The position numbers were made by a program, and so were the translations under genes. A stretch of DNA of 44,771 bases from Tannerella sp. (GTDB lineage: Bacteria > Bacteroidota > Bacteroidia > Bacteroidales > Tannerellaceae), in the NCBI GenBank assembly GCA_031271805.1, contig JAISUX010000129.1, positions 1 to 44,771 of the forward strand, read 5' to 3'. Positions within the stretch are counted from its first letter, which is position 1. The number at the start of each line of letters is the position of its first letter. The notes below the pieces were generated by a model. That model had not been told where the DNA came from, did not search any database, and saw only the letters and a list, made by a program, of their open reading frames with translations. Below are positions 27,650 to 37,606 of the stretch, in pieces.

Positions 27650-27686
27650 ATTTTGGAGAATAAAAGCAAGTTTTATCCTCCAAAAT
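27650..27686. repeat. 16-bp inverted repeat spanning the nqrF stop codon
   Basis: ATTTTGGAGAATAAAA (27650-27665) and TTTTATCCTCCAAAAT (27671-27686) form a 16-bp stem with one G-U pair (in the minus-strand RNA) and a 5-base loop. The 3' arm codes for the last residues DFGG and the stop of NqrF; the other arm lies at the island edge. No T run follows on either strand, so it is not a standard terminator. It could stabilise the nqr mRNA end or mark an insertion scar. Confidence 0.75.
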
Positions 27687-28959
27687 CATCAAAATGCAGC
27701 ATTTCGCGGGGGACGCCGAGGTTGTCGAGCATTGCTTCTACGGCTTTTGACATTGGGCCTGGGCCGCACATGTAGTACTCGATTTCTTCCGGTTCCTCGT
27801 GGTCTTTGAGGTAAGTGTTGTAGATGACCTGGTGTACGAAGCCGGCGGTGTATTTCACTCCTGCAGCGTCGGCGGCAGGGTCGGGACGGTCGAGGGCGAG
27901 GTGGAACGAGAAGTTCGGGTAATCGCGCTCGATACCGAGAAAATCGTCGAGATAAAAGACTTCGTTGAGCGCACGGGCGCCGTAGAAATACGACATCTTG
28001 CGGTCTGTCGTATGCAACGTCTTCGTCAGGTGCATGATTTGCGCGCGAAGAGGAGCCATACCCGCGCCACCACCTATCCACATCATCTCGCGTTTGGAGT
28101 CGAAAATCGGGTGGAAATCGCCGTAGGGGCCGCTCATCGTGACCTTGTCGCCGGGCTTTAATGTGAAAATATACGACGATGCTATGCCGGGCATGACGTC
28201 CTGGAAACCGACCTGAGGCTTCGGCTTGAAGGGCGGCGTGGCGATGCGGACGGTGAGCATAATGCGGTCGCCCTCAGCGGGATAGTTCGCCATTGAATAG
28301 GCGCGGATGGTCGGCTCGGTGTTACGACACTTGAGGCCGAAAAGTCCGTACTGCTGCCATGCTTTGAGGTATTCCTCGCCGATAGTCTGCTTGTCGATAT
28401 CCTTATCATAATCCATTGAATATGAGGGTATTCGTATTTGAGCGTATGAACCTGGGATGAAATCCATGTGCTCACCGGGAGGCAGAGCGACAATAAATTC
28501 CTTGATGAAAGTCGAAACGTTGTTATTCGACAGGACGGTACACTCCCACTCTTTTACGCCGAACACTTCGTCGGGTACCTGCACTATGACGTCGTTTTTT
28601 ATTTTTGTCTGGCAGGCTAAGTGCCAATGTTCTTTGATTTGTCGGCGCGAAAAGAATGTTTTCTCTGTCGGCAGTGCGTCGCCGCCTCCTTCGAGTACCT
28701 GTGCGCGGCACTGACCGCACTTACCTCCACCGCCACATGCCGACGAAAGGAATATCCCCCCGCTCTGCAACGACGCCAAGAGAGTGCTTCCTATCGGCGT
28801 TTCGATTTCCTTCTCGCCGTTAACCGTCATCTTAACGTTGCCCGACGGCACTAACTTGGCCTTAGCTACAAGCAGCAACACGACCAACAAAATTACTATC
28901 ACAAGGAACACTACTACACTCGCTCCTATCGTAATGCCCGATATTTCCATTAAAGTCAT
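27673..28959 (-). CDS. nqrF: Na+-translocating NADH:quinone reductase subunit F
   Basis: From ATG at 28959 the product has 428 residues, normal for NqrF; a longer frame from 29133 runs into nqrE and is rejected. It has an N-terminal membrane helix (about residues 8-33), a 2Fe-2S ferredoxin domain (SACGGGGKCGQC with the last ligand in LACQTK), and an FAD/NADH domain (RAYSMANYP, GGGAGMAPLRAQI, CGPGPM). NqrF takes electrons from NADH and passes them to the pump. Last gene of nqrABCDEF, 23 bases after nqrE. Confidence 0.96.
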   Translation of the reverse strand: MTLMEISGITIGASVVVFLVIVILLVVLLLVAKAKLVPSGNVKMTVNGEKEIETPIGSTLLASLQSGGIFLSSACGGGGKCGQCRAQVLEGGGDALPTEKTFFSRRQIKEHWHLACQTKIKNDVIVQVPDEVFGVKEWECTVLSNNNVSTFIKEFIVALPPGEHMDFIPGSYAQIRIPSYSMDYDKDIDKQTIGEEYLKAWQQYGLFGLKCRNTEPTIRAYSMANYPAEGDRIMLTVRIATPPFKPKPQVGFQDVMPGIASSYIFTLKPGDKVTMSGPYGDFHPIFDSKREMMWIGGGAGMAPLRAQIMHLTKTLHTTDRKMSYFYGARALNEVFYLDDFLGIERDYPNFSFHLALDRPDPAADAAGVKYTAGFVHQVIYNTYLKDHEEPEEIEYYMCGPGPMSKAVEAMLDNLGVPREMLHFDDFGG

Positions 28960-28982
28960 CTTCTTATCTTTTTGCGTTAAAC

Positions 28983-29600
28983 TTAAATTTTGAAACCTGA
29001 GAAACACATGAACGCCATGCCCATCAATCCTGTAAGTATAAAGGCTATACCGAGGCCGCGCAGGGGCTTTGGAATATCCGAATATGCGAGTTTTTCTCGT
29101 ATAGCTGCCATACCGAGTATGGCGAGCATCCATCCGATTCCCGAGCCGAAGCCGTATATTGTCGCCACACCGACATTAGGGAACACCTTTTGCTGCATAA
29201 ACAGCGAGCCACCCATGATGGCGCAGTTGACCGCAATAAGCGGCAGGAATATACCAAGCGACGAATAGAGCGCAGGCGCATATTTCTCGACTACCATCTC
29301 AACCAGCTGCGTGAACGACGCAATGACGGCGATAAACAGTATGAATGCGAGGAAACTCAGGTTGACATCCCTAAAACCTTCGCCGAGCCATGCCAAAGCG
29401 CCCTCTTTAAGCAGGTAGTTTTCGAGCATATAGTTAATCGGAAGCGTGCAAACGAGCACAAAAGTCACTGCTATACCAAGCCCGAACGCTGTCTTGACAT
29501 TTTTCGAAACAGCAAGGTAGGAACACATGCCGAGATAATAGGCAAATATCATGTTATCGACGAAAATCGATCTTACAAAAGTACTTAATACATTTTCCAT
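28983..29600 (-). CDS. nqrE: Na+-translocating NADH:quinone reductase subunit E
   Basis: The 205-residue integral membrane protein has six predicted helices and is homologous to NqrD and RnfA. It includes FAYYLGMCSYLAVSKNV with the membrane cysteine that, with one from NqrD, holds the intramembrane iron-sulfur centre. It is part of the electron path across the membrane during sodium pumping. It lies 21 bases after nqrD and 23 before nqrF. Intact. Confidence 0.95.
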   Translation of the reverse strand: MENVLSTFVRSIFVDNMIFAYYLGMCSYLAVSKNVKTAFGLGIAVTFVLVCTLPINYMLENYLLKEGALAWLGEGFRDVNLSFLAFILFIAVIASFTQLVEMVVEKYAPALYSSLGIFLPLIAVNCAIMGGSLFMQQKVFPNVGVATIYGFGSGIGWMLAILGMAAIREKLAYSDIPKPLRGLGIAFILTGLMGMAFMCFSGFKI

Positions 29601-29621: not shown

Positions 29622-30251
29622 TTAGCTCTCCTGCAAATCCTTGTTCCTCGAACGATGAATCCATATAATCACAGCGCAGATGATCAAAGCCATAGGCGGC
29701 ATTATCATCAGTCCGTTATTGACATAACCGAGGTCGTAAACAGCCTGCGGTATCACCGTAAAGCCGAACAGCGTACCTGAACCGAACAGTTCGCGGAAGA
29801 AGGCCACAACGACAAGTATTATGCCATATCCGAGTCCATTACCAATGCCATCAAGGAACGAATCCCACGGCTTATTACCAAGCGCAAAAGCTTCGAGACG
29901 CCCCATAAGTATGCAGTTTGTTATTATAAGCCCCACATATACGGACAATTGCAAGCTGACATCGTATGCGAACGCTTTCAATATTTCGTTGACCACAGTG
30001 ACCAAAGCAGCAACTACGACCAACTGAATTATGATACGTATGCGGTTTGGAATAGTCTTGCGCAAGAGCGAGATTATCACATTAGCGAAGGCCACAACTG
30101 CCGTGACCGAGATAGCCATCACGAGCGCGGGCTGCAACTTGACCGTGACCGCCAACGCTGAACATATACCGAGCATCTGGACAATTACGGGATTGTCCTT
30201 GCTCAGCGGGTTAAAAAGTATTTCTTTATTTTTTGACGATAATAATCCCAT
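29622..30251 (-). CDS. nqrD: Na+-translocating NADH:quinone reductase subunit D
   Basis: The 209-residue membrane protein has six hydrophobic helices and the NqrD/RnfE-like features NPVIVQMLGICSALAV, which carries the conserved cysteine, and ITNCILMGRLEAFA. With NqrE it forms the inverted-repeat core around the intramembrane iron centre. It begins 3 bases after nqrC. Intact and of normal length. Confidence 0.95.
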   Translation of the reverse strand: MGLLSSKNKEILFNPLSKDNPVIVQMLGICSALAVTVKLQPALVMAISVTAVVAFANVIISLLRKTIPNRIRIIIQLVVVAALVTVVNEILKAFAYDVSLQLSVYVGLIITNCILMGRLEAFALGNKPWDSFLDGIGNGLGYGIILVVVAFFRELFGSGTLFGFTVIPQAVYDLGYVNNGLMIMPPMALIICAVIIWIHRSRNKDLQES

Positions 30252-30254
30252 GTC

Positions 30255-31085
30255 TTATTGCTTTTTAGAGGTTAGAAATTTGGAATAATTGCCTATACTC
30301 GCGGAAATCATTGCGTTAACGCCATTAGAGGTGATTGTGCCGCCGGAAATGCCATCGACATAATCCTCGTTATTGAGAGGCTGTTTGCCTTTCTTCAGCA
30401 CCGAGATCGAACGGAACTGTTCGTCCTTGAAGAAATGTTTGCCTATGAACTGCCGCGAGAAATCTTCTTTTGCTATTTCGGCTCCAAGTCCCGGCGTCTC
30501 GCTCGCGTGGCTGAAATCGGCGCCAAAAACGGTGTTACAGTCATCATCCAACGCGATATAGCCCCATAGCGGCCCCCACAATCCCGCGCCGCGCATGGCG
30601 AGGATATATTTTTTCTTGCCGTCAACCTTAGCGACAAAGACCGGGAATGCGCCGCGGTCAAAGGCTTTCGCAACATCTTCCGTGAAAGCGTCGTCGCCGA
30701 CTGTCCGACCATTGGCATCCACCATGAAGTCGTCCTCGATAAATTCGTCGTACTTGGCCTCAGCTTGCTTCGCCGTCACACGGACGTTTATAGAACGAAG
30801 TATCTGCTGCCGCTTGTCGTTTTCCTCGTTTGTCTTCTGGATCGACCTCAGCGACTGCGACGTGAAGGCGAGTAGCAAAGCTACTACTACGACCATTGCC
30901 GTAGCATATAATATTGTATATGCGTTGCCGTTGGTGTCGAGTTTTTTCTTGCCCGAAGCCGGGCTTCCGGTTGCGTCACTTATCAACTCAAACTCCGATG
31001 CAGGCGCCTTGCATATAGGGCACTGTGCCGGCGGGTTGTCGCCTTCGTGAATATATCCGCATACCTTGCATTTGTATTTGCTCAT
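30255..31085 (-). CDS. nqrC: NqrC with an N-terminal rubredoxin-like domain
   Basis: The 276-residue protein has two parts. Residues 1-35 form a short rubredoxin-like domain of the rubrerythrin type, CKVCGYIHEG and CPICKAP, with Cys6, Cys9, Cys22 and Cys25 (C-x2-C-x12-C-x2-C). After a linker comes a membrane helix (56-76) and the normal NqrC periplasmic domain, with the covalent FMN site DGISGGTIT (Thr250). In known Nqr the NqrC N-terminus is cytoplasmic, so the added iron site should face the cytoplasm close to NqrF. It may receive or donate electrons besides NADH; that is inference. The start is secure: the ORF opens with the domain, in frame and 17 bases after nqrB. No second ATG starts a plain NqrC. 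Confidence 0.93.
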   Translation of the reverse strand: MSKYKCKVCGYIHEGDNPPAQCPICKAPASEFELISDATGSPASGKKKLDTNGNAYTILYATAMVVVVALLLAFTSQSLRSIQKTNEENDKRQQILRSINVRVTAKQAEAKYDEFIEDDFMVDANGRTVGDDAFTEDVAKAFDRGAFPVFVAKVDGKKKYILAMRGAGLWGPLWGYIALDDDCNTVFGADFSHASETPGLGAEIAKEDFSRQFIGKHFFKDEQFRSISVLKKGKQPLNNEDYVDGISGGTITSNGVNAMISASIGNYSKFLTSKKQ

Positions 31086-31102: not shown

Positions 31103-32284
31103 TTATTTACCTTTCACCCTTTCAAGCCTCCGTTTAATATTCCCTTCGACTACATAATAATCAATCAGCGGAGCGAAAATATTCATCATCAGTATCGCCA
31201 GCATCATTCCTTCGGGATAACCGGGATTGAGCACCCTGATGCAAATCGCAAGAAAGCCTATCAAAAGGCCGTATATCCATTTCCCGCGCTCAGTACGGGC
31301 TGATGTGACCGGATCTGTCGCCATGAAGACCGCACCGAAGCAGAAACCGCCGAGTACGAGATGTTCGTACCACGGCATATTGGCCATAGCGTTGCCCTCA
31401 AGCCCGATGAGGTTGAAGGCTAAAGCCGTAACTGCGCCTCCCAGGAAAACGGAAAACATAACTTTATAACTCGCGATACCGGTGAAAAGAAGCACGGCAG
31501 CGCCAAGCAGTATCGCGATGACGCTTGTTTCGCCTATCGAACCAGGAATGAGGCCGGTTATCATATCGCACGAAAAAGCCGGATAGCCGCTGCCTGAAGC
31601 CGCTGTCGAAGCGATTCCGAGAGGCGTAGCGCCCGAAAAACCGTCGATAACACTCCCTGCTCCAAGGCCAAATGTCGCATCGGTACGCACAAAAACTTTG
31701 TCGCCCGACATCGCCGCCGGATAGGCGAAAAACAGAAACGCCCGCGTCACAAGCGCGACATTAAACACATTGTAGCCCGTCCCTCCGAACACTTCCTTGG
31801 CAAAAATCACCGCAAAAGCCGTAGCCACTGCAATCATCCACAGCGGCGTGTCAATGGGCACAATCATCGGTATCAACATGCCTGACACGAGGAAGCCTTC
31901 CTGAATTTCCTCATGCTTAATCTGGGCTACGATAAACTCAATGCCAAGCCCTACTACGTAGGAAACGACGATTTTAGGCAACACGGCGAGGAAGCCATAT
32001 AGAAACGTCATTCCGAAACCCGGATCGGCTCCTATAGCTAAGTTGTGCTGCCAACCGGTGTTGAACATGCCGAACAGCAACGCCGGCAATAATGCGATGA
32101 TAACCACCGTCATCGTCCGTTTTGAATCAATGCTGTCGTGAATATGCACGCCGGTACGCGAGGTGCTGTTCGGGACAAAGAGGAAAGTCTCGAATCCGTC
32201 GAAGACCGACTGCAGCATCGACAACTTGCCGCCCTTTTCAAAGTTCGGCTTAATCCTGTTTAGATAATTCCTTAACGCTTTCAA
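31103..32284 (-). CDS. nqrB: Na+-translocating NADH:quinone reductase subunit B
   Basis: The 393-residue membrane protein has about ten helices and the FMN attachment motif GFSGATPLG (Thr220). NqrB carries a covalent FMN and riboflavin and is central to sodium transport and quinone reduction. It includes the usual GYNVFNVALVTRAFLFFAYP and FMATDPVTSARTERGKW segments. It is 21 bases after nqrA and 17 before nqrC. Confidence 0.96.
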   Translation of the reverse strand: MKALRNYLNRIKPNFEKGGKLSMLQSVFDGFETFLFVPNSTSRTGVHIHDSIDSKRTMTVVIIALLPALLFGMFNTGWQHNLAIGADPGFGMTFLYGFLAVLPKIVVSYVVGLGIEFIVAQIKHEEIQEGFLVSGMLIPMIVPIDTPLWMIAVATAFAVIFAKEVFGGTGYNVFNVALVTRAFLFFAYPAAMSGDKVFVRTDATFGLGAGSVIDGFSGATPLGIASTAASGSGYPAFSCDMITGLIPGSIGETSVIAILLGAAVLLFTGIASYKVMFSVFLGGAVTALAFNLIGLEGNAMANMPWYEHLVLGGFCFGAVFMATDPVTSARTERGKWIYGLLIGFLAICIRVLNPGYPEGMMLAILMMNIFAPLIDYYVVEGNIKRRLERVKGK

Positions 32285-32305: not shown

Positions 32306-33661
32306 TTAATTCATTTCCTTGTAGAGCAGGTCAAGCCCATTACGGACTATGCTCTGCAACTCGATTTTCGATGTATCGACGAACTCGCAAAGCGCGAAGT
32401 CTTCGGGCGCAACCTCGTAAATGCCAAGGTTTTCCATCTTGTCGATATCAAATGCTATAACGGCTTTCAGGAGATATTCGGGCATGATGTCCATAGGGAA
32501 TACCTTTTCGTACTCGTTCGACATTATCATCGCCCGCTTCCCGCCTTTGATTCGTGCGTCGATAACCCATTCTTTCTTCTTCGGCGAGAGCCATGCGAGA
32601 TATGAGCGCGAGACGCTATACTTGCCGAAGCCCGGCGTTGCCCATCCGAGAAACTCATCCGTATTGTCGCCTTCGGGAATGGCGGTTATCTGGTTGTTGT
32701 ACGCGCCGAGATAGTCCTCTAAACCGGCCTTCACGCCGGTCAGGACATTGCCGCTAATCAGGCGGACATGCTCGACGCCATCCGACAGTTTGCCGTCAAC
32801 AAGGCTGCCGATCGTACAGCCGGCCGTAACTTTCGCGTACCCGCGTATTTTAAATTCGGGACCGGCGAGCGCAACCGCCCTCGTGAAATCAACATGCCCT
32901 GTCTTTAAGAACCGCCCGATATAGAGCAGGTCGGGAGCGCTTATGGTATAAACCGTTTCGCCTTTGTTGACCGGCTTGATGTTGTTGATAATGACCCCCG
33001 CATTGCCAACCGGATGCGGCCCGTAGAGTTCGACTATTTCCACTCCCTTGATACTGCTTGCCAAGGCCGAACCGGGCTTGACGCCAAGATAAACTTTCCC
33101 GTCGGTAAGCCGCATCAACGCATCAATGCCGGTTTGCAGAGCATCTTCCTCGCCCTTGACGATAAAGTCGAAGTCGGTAGCGAGCGGTGCAGTGTCATAA
33201 GCCGTAACAAATATGTCGCGAGCCTCGACGGAAGGGTCGGCAATCCTGTCGTACGGCCTTTGCCTGAAGAATGGCCACAAACCGGATTCCAAAAGCAGGG
33301 CTTTCAGTTCCGATCGGTCATAATCGGCGGGATTCTTGACGTCGAACTTCACGTATTCACCCTCTCCATCAGGTTTTACCGTGACACTCAGGATCTTACG
33401 TTTCTCACCGCGGTTGACCGCAATGACTTCACCGCTAACAGGCGAGACAAACTTGATGTCCGGCTTCACCTTATCAATGAGCAAGGGCGAACCGGCCTTA
33501 ACTTTGTCGCCCGGGTGGACAACAACCTTCGGCGCGAAGCCGTTGAAATTATCCGGCACAACCGCATAACTTTCGGATTTTCCGACATTTACAAACTCCT
33601 CAGGAGCCTTACCTTTAAGGTTTATGTCTAATCCTTTTTTAATTTTGATAACACTTGCCAT
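32306..33661 (-). CDS. nqrA: Na+-translocating NADH:quinone reductase subunit A
   Basis: The 451-residue soluble subunit has the usual start KIKKGLDINLKGKAPE, the RPYDRIADP segment, and a C-terminal CEFVDTSKIELQSIVR. NqrA is on the cytoplasmic side and contributes to quinone binding. It opens the six-gene operon with a -7 box at 33699-33706. Length and content are normal. Confidence 0.96.
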   Translation of the reverse strand: MASVIKIKKGLDINLKGKAPEEFVNVGKSESYAVVPDNFNGFAPKVVVHPGDKVKAGSPLLIDKVKPDIKFVSPVSGEVIAVNRGEKRKILSVTVKPDGEGEYVKFDVKNPADYDRSELKALLLESGLWPFFRQRPYDRIADPSVEARDIFVTAYDTAPLATDFDFIVKGEEDALQTGIDALMRLTDGKVYLGVKPGSALASSIKGVEIVELYGPHPVGNAGVIINNIKPVNKGETVYTISAPDLLYIGRFLKTGHVDFTRAVALAGPEFKIRGYAKVTAGCTIGSLVDGKLSDGVEHVRLISGNVLTGVKAGLEDYLGAYNNQITAIPEGDNTDEFLGWATPGFGKYSVSRSYLAWLSPKKKEWVIDARIKGGKRAMIMSNEYEKVFPMDIMPEYLLKAVIAFDIDKMENLGIYEVAPEDFALCEFVDTSKIELQSIVRNGLDLLYKEMN

Positions 33662-33797: not shown

Positions 33798-35036
33798 ATG
33801 AGAGTATTATTGTATATTATTATATTGTTCGCGTGCGCAGGAGTTTCGGCACAGGAAGCGGTTTTTCGCACTAACGTTTACCGCGAAGATATCAAAAGTC
33901 TCGAAGTGAAAGTCGAAGGCGAGTTGATTTCATCACCCTTCATCACGCTTGGAGGAGAGGATCGGATTAGCATTTCTTTCGACGCCCTGCATCACTCAAG
34001 CGGTTATTACACCTACTCGATAGTGCATTGCAACGCCGACTGGCAGAAATCCATGCTTATGCCGATAGAATACATGAAAGGATTTCAAAACGCCTATATT
34101 CCGGACTTCGCGAACTCAATCAATACGACCGTCAACTATACGAACTACAAGCTATCCCTGCCTAACGACGATGTGCAGTTCCTTGTTTCGGGCAATTACG
34201 CCGTGCAGATCTTTGACGAGAATGAGCCGGATAAACCGGTTATCACGGCTTGCTTCTCAATAGTCGAGCCTTTGATTGAGATCGGAGCGACAGTCAGCGG
34301 GAACACCGATATCGACTTCAACAAGACGCATCAGCAGGTCGATTTAACGATAAACTACAAGGATATTAACATAGCGTTCCCACAGTCCGACCTTAAGATT
34401 TTTGTCTGCCAAAACAACGATATCGACAATATGCGCACCGACTTGCAACCGTCGCTTATCGGCAACGGCCAATTACAATACACCCACCAGCGCAAACTTA
34501 TTTTTGATGCCGGCAATGAATATCGTCGCATTGAGTTCCTGACGCATCGCTACAAAGGCATGGAAGTTGCCGATATCGGCTTTTTTAATCCTTATTACCA
34601 CCTGACTTTGTACGAAGACCGGCGCCGCGACGGAAAGACGTATCTCTACGACCAGGACCAGAACGGACGCTTCTTCGTCAGATGCAGCGAGTGCAATAAC
34701 CCGGATACCGAGGCCGACTATTATGTCGTGCATTTCGCGCTCATCTCGGAGTTCATCGAAAACGGCGAAATACATCTCTACGGCGACTTTTTCAATAACA
34801 CTATCGATGATCGTAGCCGTATGGAATACAACCCCGAAACAGGCATGTATGAGGCCGCAGTAATGCTAAAACAAGGGCTGTACAACTATAAATATGCCTT
34901 TGTCGAAGACTCGAAAGTAACCTTCGCACCCACCGAAGGCGACTATTTCGAGACGGAAAACGAATACACGGTAACGGTCTTTTATCGCCCCGCAGCAGCA
35001 CGCTACGACAGGCTAATCGGTTTCGCAAAATTTTAA
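33798..35036 (+). CDS. DUF5103 / type IX secretion plug-like protein
   Basis: The 412-residue exported protein has a short signal peptide (RVLLYIIILFACAGVSA). Its features match the DUF5103 family: YREDIKSLEVKVEGE near the N-terminus, YTYSIVHCNADWQKS, and the C-terminal Ig-like module with YNPETGMYEAAVMLKQGLYNYKY. A member of this family was seen as the plug closing the periplasmic side of the SprA translocon of the type IX secretion system. It is a single gene here with no other secretion genes nearby, as is usual for T9SS components. Its stop overlaps that of the convergent methyltransferase-like gene (shared TTAA). Confidence 0.8.
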   Translation: MRVLLYIIILFACAGVSAQEAVFRTNVYREDIKSLEVKVEGELISSPFITLGGEDRISISFDALHHSSGYYTYSIVHCNADWQKSMLMPIEYMKGFQNAYIPDFANSINTTVNYTNYKLSLPNDDVQFLVSGNYAVQIFDENEPDKPVITACFSIVEPLIEIGATVSGNTDIDFNKTHQQVDLTINYKDINIAFPQSDLKIFVCQNNDIDNMRTDLQPSLIGNGQLQYTHQRKLIFDAGNEYRRIEFLTHRYKGMEVADIGFFNPYYHLTLYEDRRRDGKTYLYDQDQNGRFFVRCSECNNPDTEADYYVVHFALISEFIENGEIHLYGDFFNNTIDDRSRMEYNPETGMYEAAVMLKQGLYNYKYAFVEDSKVTFAPTEGDYFETENEYTVTVFYRPAAARYDRLIGFAKF

Positions 35037-37606
35037 ATCACCGCAGCATCAACGAAAGCCCGCTCATCGTCCGTCAATTCATAAAGTTCATAAACAAGCT
35101 CATCAATTCTCGCATCTATCTCGTATCGTTCTTCGTCAGTCATCGTGTTTTCGGTGATAAGGCGGTTGACAAGCGTTATCATGTCGGACTCCATATCTCC
35201 GCTTGGCGGCGGCACTAACATCGACTCGACGGCAAATACGCTCAACTGCGAATTTTTAGCCGACAAACGACCGGAATCCGTCAGCATATACCGTCCCATC
35301 TTCGAATTGAGCACGCCAAGGATGAATTTCAGATGCTGCCCAACCATATAACAAGCGTTGTCAAGGACAATACAACCGCCATAGTCTATACCAAACCGGC
35401 AATCCGACGCATCTCGCTGCCAGACTATCTTTTGCTCCGCAAAATAATTCCGGTTATCTTTCATGTCCAAACTTTGCAATACATACCATTCAAATAAGAC
35501 GCCGACCTCATTATTGCGTGAATAAAGAGTGTCCTTATATTTCATCAGATGTGCGTAAATATCAGGATATTGCACCTGAAATCTCTGTTCGGCGCGATCC
35601 GATGCCGATGTAATACTTGCGTCAAATTCCAACGGGAAATGCCAAGGAAGAAACAAAATCCATTTTTCAGGCGTTTCATTCTTATACCTCTTTATGCAAT
35701 CACTTGATAATAATGGTTTTATAAAATCGGAATTTTTAGGATCGGAGAATATCAGTTCCTCTCGCTCCGATGCACTTATGATAAATGCCTCGTCACAACC
35801 GGTCAAAATACCGGAATGAACGCTGATATCCCAACTCCTGAGATTCATTCCTGCATGGATTATTTTATATTTTATATTTTCATAAATCTCCTCATCGGTG
35901 ATTAATGATGAATATGGTATCTTAACCTTTTTCTCGACAAGCCACGGCACAGTCTCGGAAAATTTCCATATATATTCCTCAATATTAATGGCTTTCGGAT
36001 TATAAGAAGATTCTATCACACACTTTATAACACGACGACGATTGATGTCTTTTTGAATAATCAGGGCGCAATTGTCCTTTAATGCCGCTTCTTCAAACAA
36101 AACCAACCGAAGCGGATTCATATTTGCCGCCAGATAATCGCACAGGTTCGATGTCTCATAAATACATCTGCAAGGTATGAAATACGAAGCGTAACCGCCT
36201 TGAACCAAAAGTCGGTTAGTCAATTCGCAAAACAGGTCGGCTACATATCCCGAACGTTTTAAGGACGTGAAATTCATGCGTTTATAGACATTATACTTAT
36301 CTCCGAGATCGTCTATCGACATATCCGGCAATGCTCCGACCATTGCATCAAATCCCAAAAATTTACCTTTCTCATCAAGCAATTCGGGAAAGACATAGCG
36401 CCACTCAATCGCCTTATTAAAAGCCTGATGAAAGCGATATGCGTACAACTGCTGCTCATGCTTTTTTATCTTTGCCTGTAGCAGCGAAACCTTGTCGTAA
36501 TGCGTCTGCTTCTCCGTTTCATCCAAAGGAAATAGACTTGGCGCCAGCGCTTCCGACAACTCGCGACGCAAACGCAACAATTCTTCCGAATCCTTGCTAT
36601 ACCATCCGATACCTTCGACAAGCCTGTTCCTGATTAGCCCAATCGTTTCTGCAATATAATAGCGCTCATCCGGATCTTCGTTGGTCTTCAAATTTTCCGC
36701 AAGTCGCTTGTAATCAACGACATTATAATTTATCCTTTTCAATGCCTCAAGCAAGTCGTCTTTCAACGAAAAACGACTGACAAGCGCATCTCCACAAATT
36801 ATATTACCTTCTAATATATGTAACGATTTTATTCTCCGGCCATTAAATGTCTTAACAATGTGTAACCACAATCTTAATTTGCTGATCAACACGACATAAG
36901 GATCGCAATCAACTCCAAAAAGACAATTCTTTATTAATGCCGATTTTTCCTCGCATATAATATCCTGAATATTAACACTTTCGGCATTGCAGCCATCTAA
37001 AGCGACATGCCTTAATCCCTTCTTATCAAACACAACTAATCCGCCTTCGACGGAGATAAACTTATACTGATATAGCGGGTTCCCATCCCTATCCACAAGC
37101 AAACCCAAACTCGACTTAACGGCAATCATCTCGTCAAGCATCACATCCAAAAACTCCCCGCACCCGACCGCCGGATCACAAATGCGCAGAGAAAGGAATA
37201 TGCGGTTGGCATCCGAAACATTATTCCCGATTGCATTGGCAAGACTTTGCAAATCAACGTATTGAGCGCCAAGAACGGCATTAAATTTCTTTAATACGGC
37301 ATTTTGGACTGCTTGCCGGCAAAGGTAAGAGGTCAAAAAATAAGTCTGTGGGGAGTTAGCGTTCAATTCCGACAAAAAGCAGTCCAAGGTATCGGAAATC
37401 GCCCTGACGCTAACTCCTTGCCGCGAAAATATTGAATTGAGCAACGCCACAACCTCATCAAACGACGGGATTTCGCCGTCCGTTGATTCTACAACAGACT
37501 CCGATTTTTCAGCCGACCCATCTATCGAATCTTCCGCCGACAAATCCGCGCCGCCAAACAAAGCCTTCAACTCGGTATATATATAAACATCAACCTCTTT
37601 TCCCAT
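35033..37606 (-). CDS. Eco57I/TaqI-like N6-adenine methyltransferase homologue with a degenerate catalytic motif
   Basis: The 857-residue protein resembles the methyltransferase and target-recognition parts of Eco57I/type IIG enzymes. The SAM-binding motif I is present as DPAVGCGEFL (residues 144-153). Where these enzymes have NPPY (motif IV), this one reads FDAMVGALPDM (G424-A-L-P-D428), and no other NPP occurs in the protein. A TaqI-like specificity region follows (GILTGCDEAFII near 640, then DFIKPLLSSDCIKRY). It lacks an obvious nuclease domain and has no restriction or specificity partner nearby. It may bind DNA without methylating it; this is inference. It has its own -7 box. Confidence 0.75.
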   Translation of the reverse strand: MGKEVDVYIYTELKALFGGADLSAEDSIDGSAEKSESVVESTDGEIPSFDEVVALLNSIFSRQGVSVRAISDTLDCFLSELNANSPQTYFLTSYLCRQAVQNAVLKKFNAVLGAQYVDLQSLANAIGNNVSDANRIFLSLRICDPAVGCGEFLDVMLDEMIAVKSSLGLLVDRDGNPLYQYKFISVEGGLVVFDKKGLRHVALDGCNAESVNIQDIICEEKSALIKNCLFGVDCDPYVVLISKLRLWLHIVKTFNGRRIKSLHILEGNIICGDALVSRFSLKDDLLEALKRINYNVVDYKRLAENLKTNEDPDERYYIAETIGLIRNRLVEGIGWYSKDSEELLRLRRELSEALAPSLFPLDETEKQTHYDKVSLLQAKIKKHEQQLYAYRFHQAFNKAIEWRYVFPELLDEKGKFLGFDAMVGALPDMSIDDLGDKYNVYKRMNFTSLKRSGYVADLFCELTNRLLVQGGYASYFIPCRCIYETSNLCDYLAANMNPLRLVLFEEAALKDNCALIIQKDINRRRVIKCVIESSYNPKAINIEEYIWKFSETVPWLVEKKVKIPYSSLITDEEIYENIKYKIIHAGMNLRSWDISVHSGILTGCDEAFIISASEREELIFSDPKNSDFIKPLLSSDCIKRYKNETPEKWILFLPWHFPLEFDASITSASDRAEQRFQVQYPDIYAHLMKYKDTLYSRNNEVGVLFEWYVLQSLDMKDNRNYFAEQKIVWQRDASDCRFGIDYGGCIVLDNACYMVGQHLKFILGVLNSKMGRYMLTDSGRLSAKNSQLSVFAVESMLVPPPSGDMESDMITLVNRLITENTMTDEERYEIDARIDELVYELYELTDDERAFVDAAVI

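Follow-up and report, generated by a model that had tools for sequence, protein, structure and literature searches.

A rubredoxin domain at the N terminus of NqrC in Bacteroidales, a possible electron tap on the Na+-NQR pump

A rubrerythrin-type rubredoxin (Rd) domain has been added to the NqrC subunit of Na+-NQR in Bacteroidales, and this addition to a well-known respiratory pump is real and recurrent. Abundant gut anaerobes use Na+-NQR as an NADH dehydrogenase, and in textbooks its electrons leave by a single exit, quinone. If a second, conserved metal site faced the cytoplasm, the pump could send electrons along a branch. We studied the fusion in a contig of Tannerella sp., called the window below, which is the whole stretch of 44,771 nucleotides that was analysed. 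As to function, we give an even chance to a reading that draws on sequence comparisons: the Rd would be a flexible cytoplasmic electron tap by NqrF, feeding soluble acceptors such as reverse rubrerythrin. A broader proposal is more tentative and falls short of even, namely, that the Na+-NQR of gut Bacteroidales is branched and serves both quinone and a built-in cytoplasmic Rd, from which reverse rubrerythrin and further soluble reductases draw their electrons.

The rubredoxin domain and its NqrC

The window holds an intact nqrABCDEF operon, six genes in order on the minus strand. nqrA (32306..33661, TIGR01936) and nqrB (31103..32284, TIGR01937) come first, nqrC (30255..31085) is the third gene, and nqrD (29622..30251, TIGR01939), nqrE (28983..29600, TIGR01940), and nqrF (27673..29133, TIGR01941, E 6.3e-167), encoding the NADH/FAD/[2Fe-2S] subunit, follow. 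The nqrF ORF is open for about 60 codons upstream of a likely start at MTLMEISG, and the nqrF model matches from residue 71. The nqrC ORF, recognized by its reading frame and profile matches, has its ATG 17 bases past the nqrB stop and encodes 276 amino acids; its translation begins MSKYKCKVCGYIHEGDNPPAQCPICKAPASEFELI. This protein scores 202 bits against the NCBIfam nqrC model TIGR01938, above the cut-off of 144, and 290.3 bits against the narrower NCBIfam model NF003750, under the cut-off of 352. Its FMN-binding domain (residues 168-262, 30300..30584, minus strand; Pfam PF04205, 61.2 bits, cut-off 22, E 1.5e-16) is periplasmic by homology. The motif SGGT250 is aligned to SGAT in the V. cholerae protein, and Thr250 (30336-30338, minus strand) is the predicted FMN site from alignment to NqrC structures. 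Elsewhere in the window, at 35033-37606 on the minus strand, an Eco57I-type methylase (PF07669) with a match to a TaqI-like specificity domain slightly under cut-off is a candidate single-chain restriction-modification protein.

The initial annotation had read the start of the nqrC ORF as a rubrerythrin-type Rd with Cys6/9/22/25 fused to the N terminus of NqrC, and this was borne out by the match to PF21349 together with that to TIGR01938. PF21349 (RUBY_RBDX) covers residues 4-33 with 55.9 bits (Pfam cut-off 26.5, E 2.7e-15); the short-spaced domain as a whole spans residues 1-36 (30978..31085, minus strand), and the match to NF045767 is confined to it (residues 3-37). The canonical rubredoxin model PF00301 reached 10.9 bits in the window protein, below its cut-off of 23, and only over residues 3-14. 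The diiron domain PF02915 had no match there at E 1, so the protein is neither a rubrerythrin nor a reverse rubrerythrin. We compared folds through sequence profiles. When a profile of residues 1-40 was run against solved structures, rubrerythrin (1ryt/1b71) ranked at the top with E 6.6e-13, and rubredoxins came next; a zinc finger appeared far down the same ranking, at E 8.3e-5.

An AlphaFold2 model built with 40 sequences gave residues 1-30 a mean pLDDT of 94-97 per ten-residue block, disorder at residues 39-47 (pLDDT below 50), a long helix at 54-97, and an FMN domain with a mean pLDDT of 90.7. Residues 1-40 modelled alone formed the same strands, with a mean pLDDT of 90.5. The disordered residues lie in a flexible linker (residues 37-53, 30927..30977, minus strand) that places Lys46/47 near the membrane. 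It leads into a predicted membrane helix at about residues 54-76 (30858..30926, minus strand), homologous to the anchor helix of NqrC. From what is seen in its relatives, the Rd would bind iron and would lie in the cytoplasm. Both the sequence and the predicted model show that this ORF encodes a true NqrC of Na+-NQR, to whose N terminus an Rd has been added on a flexible tether.

One alternative is that the Rd has a structural or assembly role, as a metal knuckle (Fe or Zn) for stabilizing or docking the complex, with no part in electron transfer. The domain is accessory, since many NqrCs do without it: the set analysed, which was chosen partly for fusions, comprised 141 distinct plain and 92 distinct fused proteins. 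However, the closest solved structures are those of rubrerythrins and rubredoxins, with the zinc finger far below them, and a disordered linker is poorly compatible with rigid docking. Fusions of the same type of domain to NqrF-like reductases, described below, place it at the position of a redox carrier. We regard the structural role as unlikely.

Spread, conservation, and origin of the fusion

Comparing NqrCs for the fusion and its spread was a check named in the initial annotation. The fusion recurs, and 92 distinct fused proteins were gathered. From the family of the window, 98 genomes were examined; NqrC was readable in 84, and 25 of these 84 carried the fused form. In a sample of the order, 8 of 393 genomes (G000, G014, G022, G115, G138, G324, G464, and G476) had a match that spans the Rd into the helix, each confirmed by inspection. 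In a sample of the phylum, 4 of 395 genomes matched at E ≤1e-20. Two of the four, the window genome and G014, were fused and belong to the window's family, and the other two, from the window's order, aligned only past the Rd. A scan of contigs from named species, with alignment of residues 1-100, gave at least 80 loci, and 80/80 among the matches listed were fusions; since the query itself started with the Rd, these counts do not measure how frequent the fusion is.

Carriers include Parabacteroides distasonis, P. massiliensis, P. acidifaciens, P. chinchillae, and P. faecalis, as well as Paraprevotella clara, Paraprevotella xylaniphila, and Segatella paludivivens. Carrier metagenome-assembled genomes (MAGs) bear the titles Tannerella, Phocaeicola, Paludibacteraceae, and Dysgonamonadaceae. 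The fused NqrC from a record titled Clostridium sp. (L145) sits beside Paraprevotella on the tree, and we therefore take this record to be a mislabelled MAG. The NqrC of G068, a genome of the window's genus, is the same as that in a MAG titled Tannerella sp. (L089). An uncultured Phocaeicola MAG (L152:2153-3298, plus strand) encodes an NqrC of 382 amino acids with three tandem Rd domains. Four genomes of the window's genus that are 91-99% complete (G011, G021, G033, and G038) have a plain NqrC and a canonical rubredoxin each; a PF21349 match is absent altogether from these four, though their NqrC is close to that of the window.

The initial annotation had named cysteines that vary among orthologues as evidence against its reading. 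The cysteines are kept, and the C-x2-C-x12-C-x2-C spacing is exact, in all 92 distinct fused NqrCs, which excludes chance. Across these 92 rows the commonest residue has a mean share of 0.84 (Rd), 0.76 (helix), 0.58 (periplasmic part), and 0.53 (linker). We obtained pN/pS values of 0.22 for the Rd, 0.25 for the linker, 0.18 for the periplasmic part, and 0.16 for the helix (331 pairs among 30 closer sequences, with synonymous changes partly saturated). On this short scale, the Rd is therefore under purifying selection, no more so than the rest of the protein.

These data bear on the possibility of an artefact: a misread start codon, a chimeric assembly, or a neutral leftover. In favor of it, the genome from which the window comes is an 86% complete draft in 138 contigs. 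The fusion is also found in named strains and in single-contig genomes (for example, G049, G066, and G086), and the counts, the cysteine spacing in 92/92 proteins, and the Rd pN/pS of 0.22 refute an artefact. Translation that starts after the domain was likewise considered at the outset; codons 2-60 of nqrC include no ATG or GTG and a single TTG, which falls at residue 34, where the domain ends and before the helix begins. An artefact is hardly credible.

The linker varies in length, with 20-37 residues between the last Cys and the first Tyr of the helix in the 92 fused proteins; Lys46/47 are almost invariant in 40 sequences. The position that corresponds to the start Met of plain NqrC is Leu in 51 fused proteins, Ile in 28, Met in 7, Phe in 4, and Val in 2 (n=92). 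It looks as if an Rd and a linker had been placed before a complete NqrC, with most of the old starts having drifted since. The median net charge of the 11 residues around the old start is +2, as would be expected for a cytoplasmic N terminus.

Where did the Rd come from? Each of 61 distinct fused Rd domains has another fused Rd as its nearest neighbor, which points to a single origin of the Rd module; for the window's own Rd, the nearest fused Rd comes from another family. The same count of 61/61 leads us to reject the idea that individual genomes recently captured the Rd, each from its own reverse rubrerythrin. Mean identity, for the first 60 fused Rds, is 0.75 to a fused Rd versus 0.57 to reverse rubrerythrin. 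For comparison we used 29 Rds from reverse rubrerythrins, no more than 2 from classical rubrerythrins, and 2 small ones (one spurious); fused Rds have a mean identity of 0.57 to the 29 and of 0.44 to the 2 classical rubrerythrin Rds. Identity in the Rd follows identity in the periplasmic domain (Mantel r 0.35, 0/999 permutations, 92 rows).

On NqrC trees built with the Rd columns removed, the fused state changes repeatedly, and the Rd is therefore not required for the pump as such. A tree of 107 of the 146 distinct NqrC rows had 12 changes, of which at least 9 fell on well supported branches; the other 39 rows had been omitted by hand, intended as near-duplicates and truncated rows. In a larger tree of 173 rows there were 11 changes, at least 10 well supported. 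This tree combined the 84 of 98 family genomes with 89 genomes of the order outside the family with a readable NqrC, most of which had matched the window's protein more strongly. If the module arose once, as the Rd comparison suggests, repeated loss, lateral exchange, or both must have followed. Upstream of the 141 plain nqrC genes, we found no remnant of an Rd within up to 250 bases in three frames (best E 2.2). By eye, the longer N termini of some plain NqrCs (G021, G033, G011, G409, G481, and G340) give the impression of linker leftovers.

Position and electron transfer

The initial annotation had placed the Rd near NqrF, and this fits the published structure of the Vibrio complex, in which the NqrC helix contacts NqrD helix 3 and NqrF helix 1 (PMC9325719). 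The tether starts at this helix, so the metal site should adjoin the NqrF reductase. A linker of 20-37 residues should let the Rd reach the NqrF zone, by homology with that structure; the cytoplasmic parts of NqrF are described as mobile in passages of PMC9325719 and PMC10643135. In the mechanism we propose, NqrF would reduce the Rd positioned beside its reductase, and the Rd would then hand single electrons to soluble acceptors, chiefly reverse rubrerythrin, which would use them to remove H2O2 and O2. The pump may thus double as a membrane-bound NADH:rubredoxin reductase, that is, an electron tap.

In the family of the window we found fusions of a short Rd to the FAD/NADH module of NqrF, without the membrane helix and without the [2Fe-2S] part (L374:7283-8260, minus strand; L362:64-840, plus strand; and pieces on L363, recognized by profile matches). 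They occur in at least 3 of 98 genomes of this family, versus 0 of 30 hand-picked other genomes. In protein P0002 of G006, the Rd at residues 3-31 is followed by a match to the nqrF model of 407.8 bits (cut-off 295) that covers profile positions 128-403 of 405; this copy is imperfect, as no start codon precedes the Rd in its frame. The copy in G040 (L362:64-840) has the Rd and nqrF profile positions 120-332 (E 1.7e-85, 287.4 bits, just under cut-off) and ends early, and G023 has broken pieces. All three genomes have a plain NqrC, and each has at least part of a reverse rubrerythrin. The G006 gene adjoins genes for a sulfite-reductase-like/TusA protein, a tetrapyrrole methylase, and a PAPS-reductase-domain protein. 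These are sulfate-assimilation genes and not peroxide genes, and the acceptors may therefore differ. The arrangement suggests a natural fusion of reductase and carrier and, by extension, that an NqrF-type flavin may be able to reduce such an Rd.

We then considered which genomes also encode the putative acceptor. Reverse rubrerythrin is present in 29 of 30 genomes with a fused NqrC, G088 being the sole exception, versus 61 of 143 with a plain NqrC. Within the window's family, the counts are 24/25 fused versus 16/59 plain, with a p of 2.7e-9 that treats relatives as if they were independent, which they are not; outside the family, they are 5/5 versus 45/84 (p 0.065). Ten independent pairs gave a mean of 3 for the association, about 0 against, and 7 ties, with a median p of 0.25, which is not significant. 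The link between the fusion and reverse rubrerythrin is therefore suggestive only, and the co-occurrence could also stem from reverse rubrerythrin as the donor of the Rd. In the window genome, the reverse rubrerythrin gene lies downstream of a gene of the Fur family; the best NCBIfam match of that Fur-family gene, PerR, is below cut-off (102.8 against 180). In G138, a stand-alone short Rd of 41 amino acids (L279:4314-4439, plus strand) has a similar Fur-family gene on one side and reverse rubrerythrin on the other. According to the text available from PMC7482061, reverse rubrerythrins are NADH-linked H2O2/O2 reductases in vitro, working via a reductase and an Rd domain.

A related possibility is that the Rd is an electron buffer or safety valve, briefly storing electrons from NqrF and so cutting flavin semiquinone and stray reduction of O2; this needs no dedicated soluble acceptor. 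The position beside NqrF would be the same, a peroxide-type enzyme is present in 29/30 carriers, and an extra cluster in complex I has such a proposed role in passages of PMC5210497. However, Rd-NqrF-type fusions and a lone Rd that adjoins reverse rubrerythrin speak for carriage and not storage, and we consider the buffer rather unlikely.

The initial annotation had allowed for an extra electron entry or exit. The exit gained support from the Rd-NqrF fusions and from the co-occurrence with reverse rubrerythrin, which is not significant after phylogenetic control; for the entry, nothing was found. An Rd that served for entry would be reduced by rubredoxin, ferredoxin, or another reductase and would pass the electrons to NqrD/E, driving the pump without NADH. 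The linker might permit it to reach the NqrD/E inlet. However, Rd centres lie at about -130 to +281 mV in the accessible portions of PMC6033852 and PMC7482061, values that are probably too high for the pump's low-potential end, and among potential partners the lone rubredoxin PF00301 had no association after pairing. Entry is improbable. We had also considered that the fused Rd replaces lone rubredoxin PF00301; we rejected this, as the raw family contrast of 4/25 fused versus 23/59 plain (p 0.044) did not persist when 6 independent pairs were compared.

Can the potential of the Rd be predicted? Two positions in the NqrC Rd presumably correspond, with the help of a structure-profile alignment, to those of an Asn and a His in rubrerythrin. 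The first is Val in 84 fused NqrCs, Ile in 5, Thr in 2, and Leu in 1, with Asn in 0/92; the second is Ala in 81, Val in 6, Ser in 3, and Gln in 2, with His in 0/92. Classical rubrerythrin Rds have both Asn and His (2/2), and reverse-rubrerythrin Rds have neither (29/29). According to passages of PMC6033852, rubrerythrin Rd centres have potentials of +185 to +280 mV, the high potential being ascribed to the Asn and His near the cysteines of D. vulgaris rubrerythrin, and the short Rd of FDP_F, without that Asn and His, has about -110 mV. With no Asn or His in the fused Rds, a low or middle potential is predicted from their residues. This argument is weakened by a statement in the accessible part of PMC7482061 that Rd potentials vary widely, with shifts not yet assigned to residues. 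The same source gives +10 and -10 mV for the Rd centres of C. difficile reverse rubrerythrin, and electrons could therefore flow from NADH through NqrF and the NqrC Rd to reverse rubrerythrin and then to peroxide.

Significance and comparison with known systems

The addition of an Rd to NqrC is undescribed so far as our literature searches reach. We recognized no description of an NqrC-rubredoxin fusion in the open-licence literature, where most papers were judged by title and the start of the abstract. The main text of an RNF/NQR review (PMC12174285) contains 0 occurrences of rubredoxin or rubrerythrin, and a study of NQR evolution states that fused or chimeric sequences were dropped before alignment (PMC4014512). 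In B. thetaiotaomicron, the known NADH:rubredoxin reductase (NROR) is one electron source for rubredoxin and others exist, according to excerpts of PMC5210497. The fused pump is a candidate NADH-to-rubredoxin source in those relatives of this species that carry it. If so, it would be a missing route, apart from NROR, by which NADH electrons reach the defences against oxygen and peroxide that depend on rubredoxin, and it would couple these defences to membrane energetics. The electron-tap hypothesis is plausible but unproven, and it is testable. A pump with branched electron flow would open the route from NADH to rubredoxin and rubrerythrin in Bacteroidales to direct testing. The fused gene is present in culturable species, such as Parabacteroides distasonis, part of whose protein has already been crystallized (PDB 3LWX).

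The statement in the initial annotation that known NqrC lacks the domain held for Vibrio but not for P. distasonis. The V. cholerae NqrC shares with the window protein the membrane helix and the FMN domain with its Thr motif. Its chain 7xk3_C (257 amino acids) enters the helix region from about residue 11, which aligns to residue 57 of the window protein, too close to the chain's start for an Rd to fit. In contrast, all 197 of 197 aligned residues of 3LWX fall exactly within L016, a fused NqrC of 270 amino acids; the solved chain begins past the helix. 3LWX is named as the NqrC of P. distasonis in PMC4348036, and the available text of that paper, which discusses this structure, contains 0 occurrences of rubredoxin.

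Other proteins also carry a short-spaced Rd. Reverse rubrerythrin has the same N-terminal, short-spaced Rd, with 57% mean identity to fused Rds (29 sequences) and no Asn or His, but its diiron domain is absent from NqrC. The class F flavodiiron protein FDP_F of C. difficile also bears a short-spaced Rd on a redox enzyme, in a chain that starts from an NADH/FAD reductase (passages of PMC6033852); unlike Na+-NQR, it is a soluble O2 reductase with an unrelated core and no ion pump. The Rd-NqrF-type reductases (P0002 and L362:64-840) come from the same family as the window and have the same Rd type on a part of the NQR machinery. They differ from fused NqrC in that they have no membrane helix, the Rd replaces the ferredoxin domain, and all copies are imperfect.
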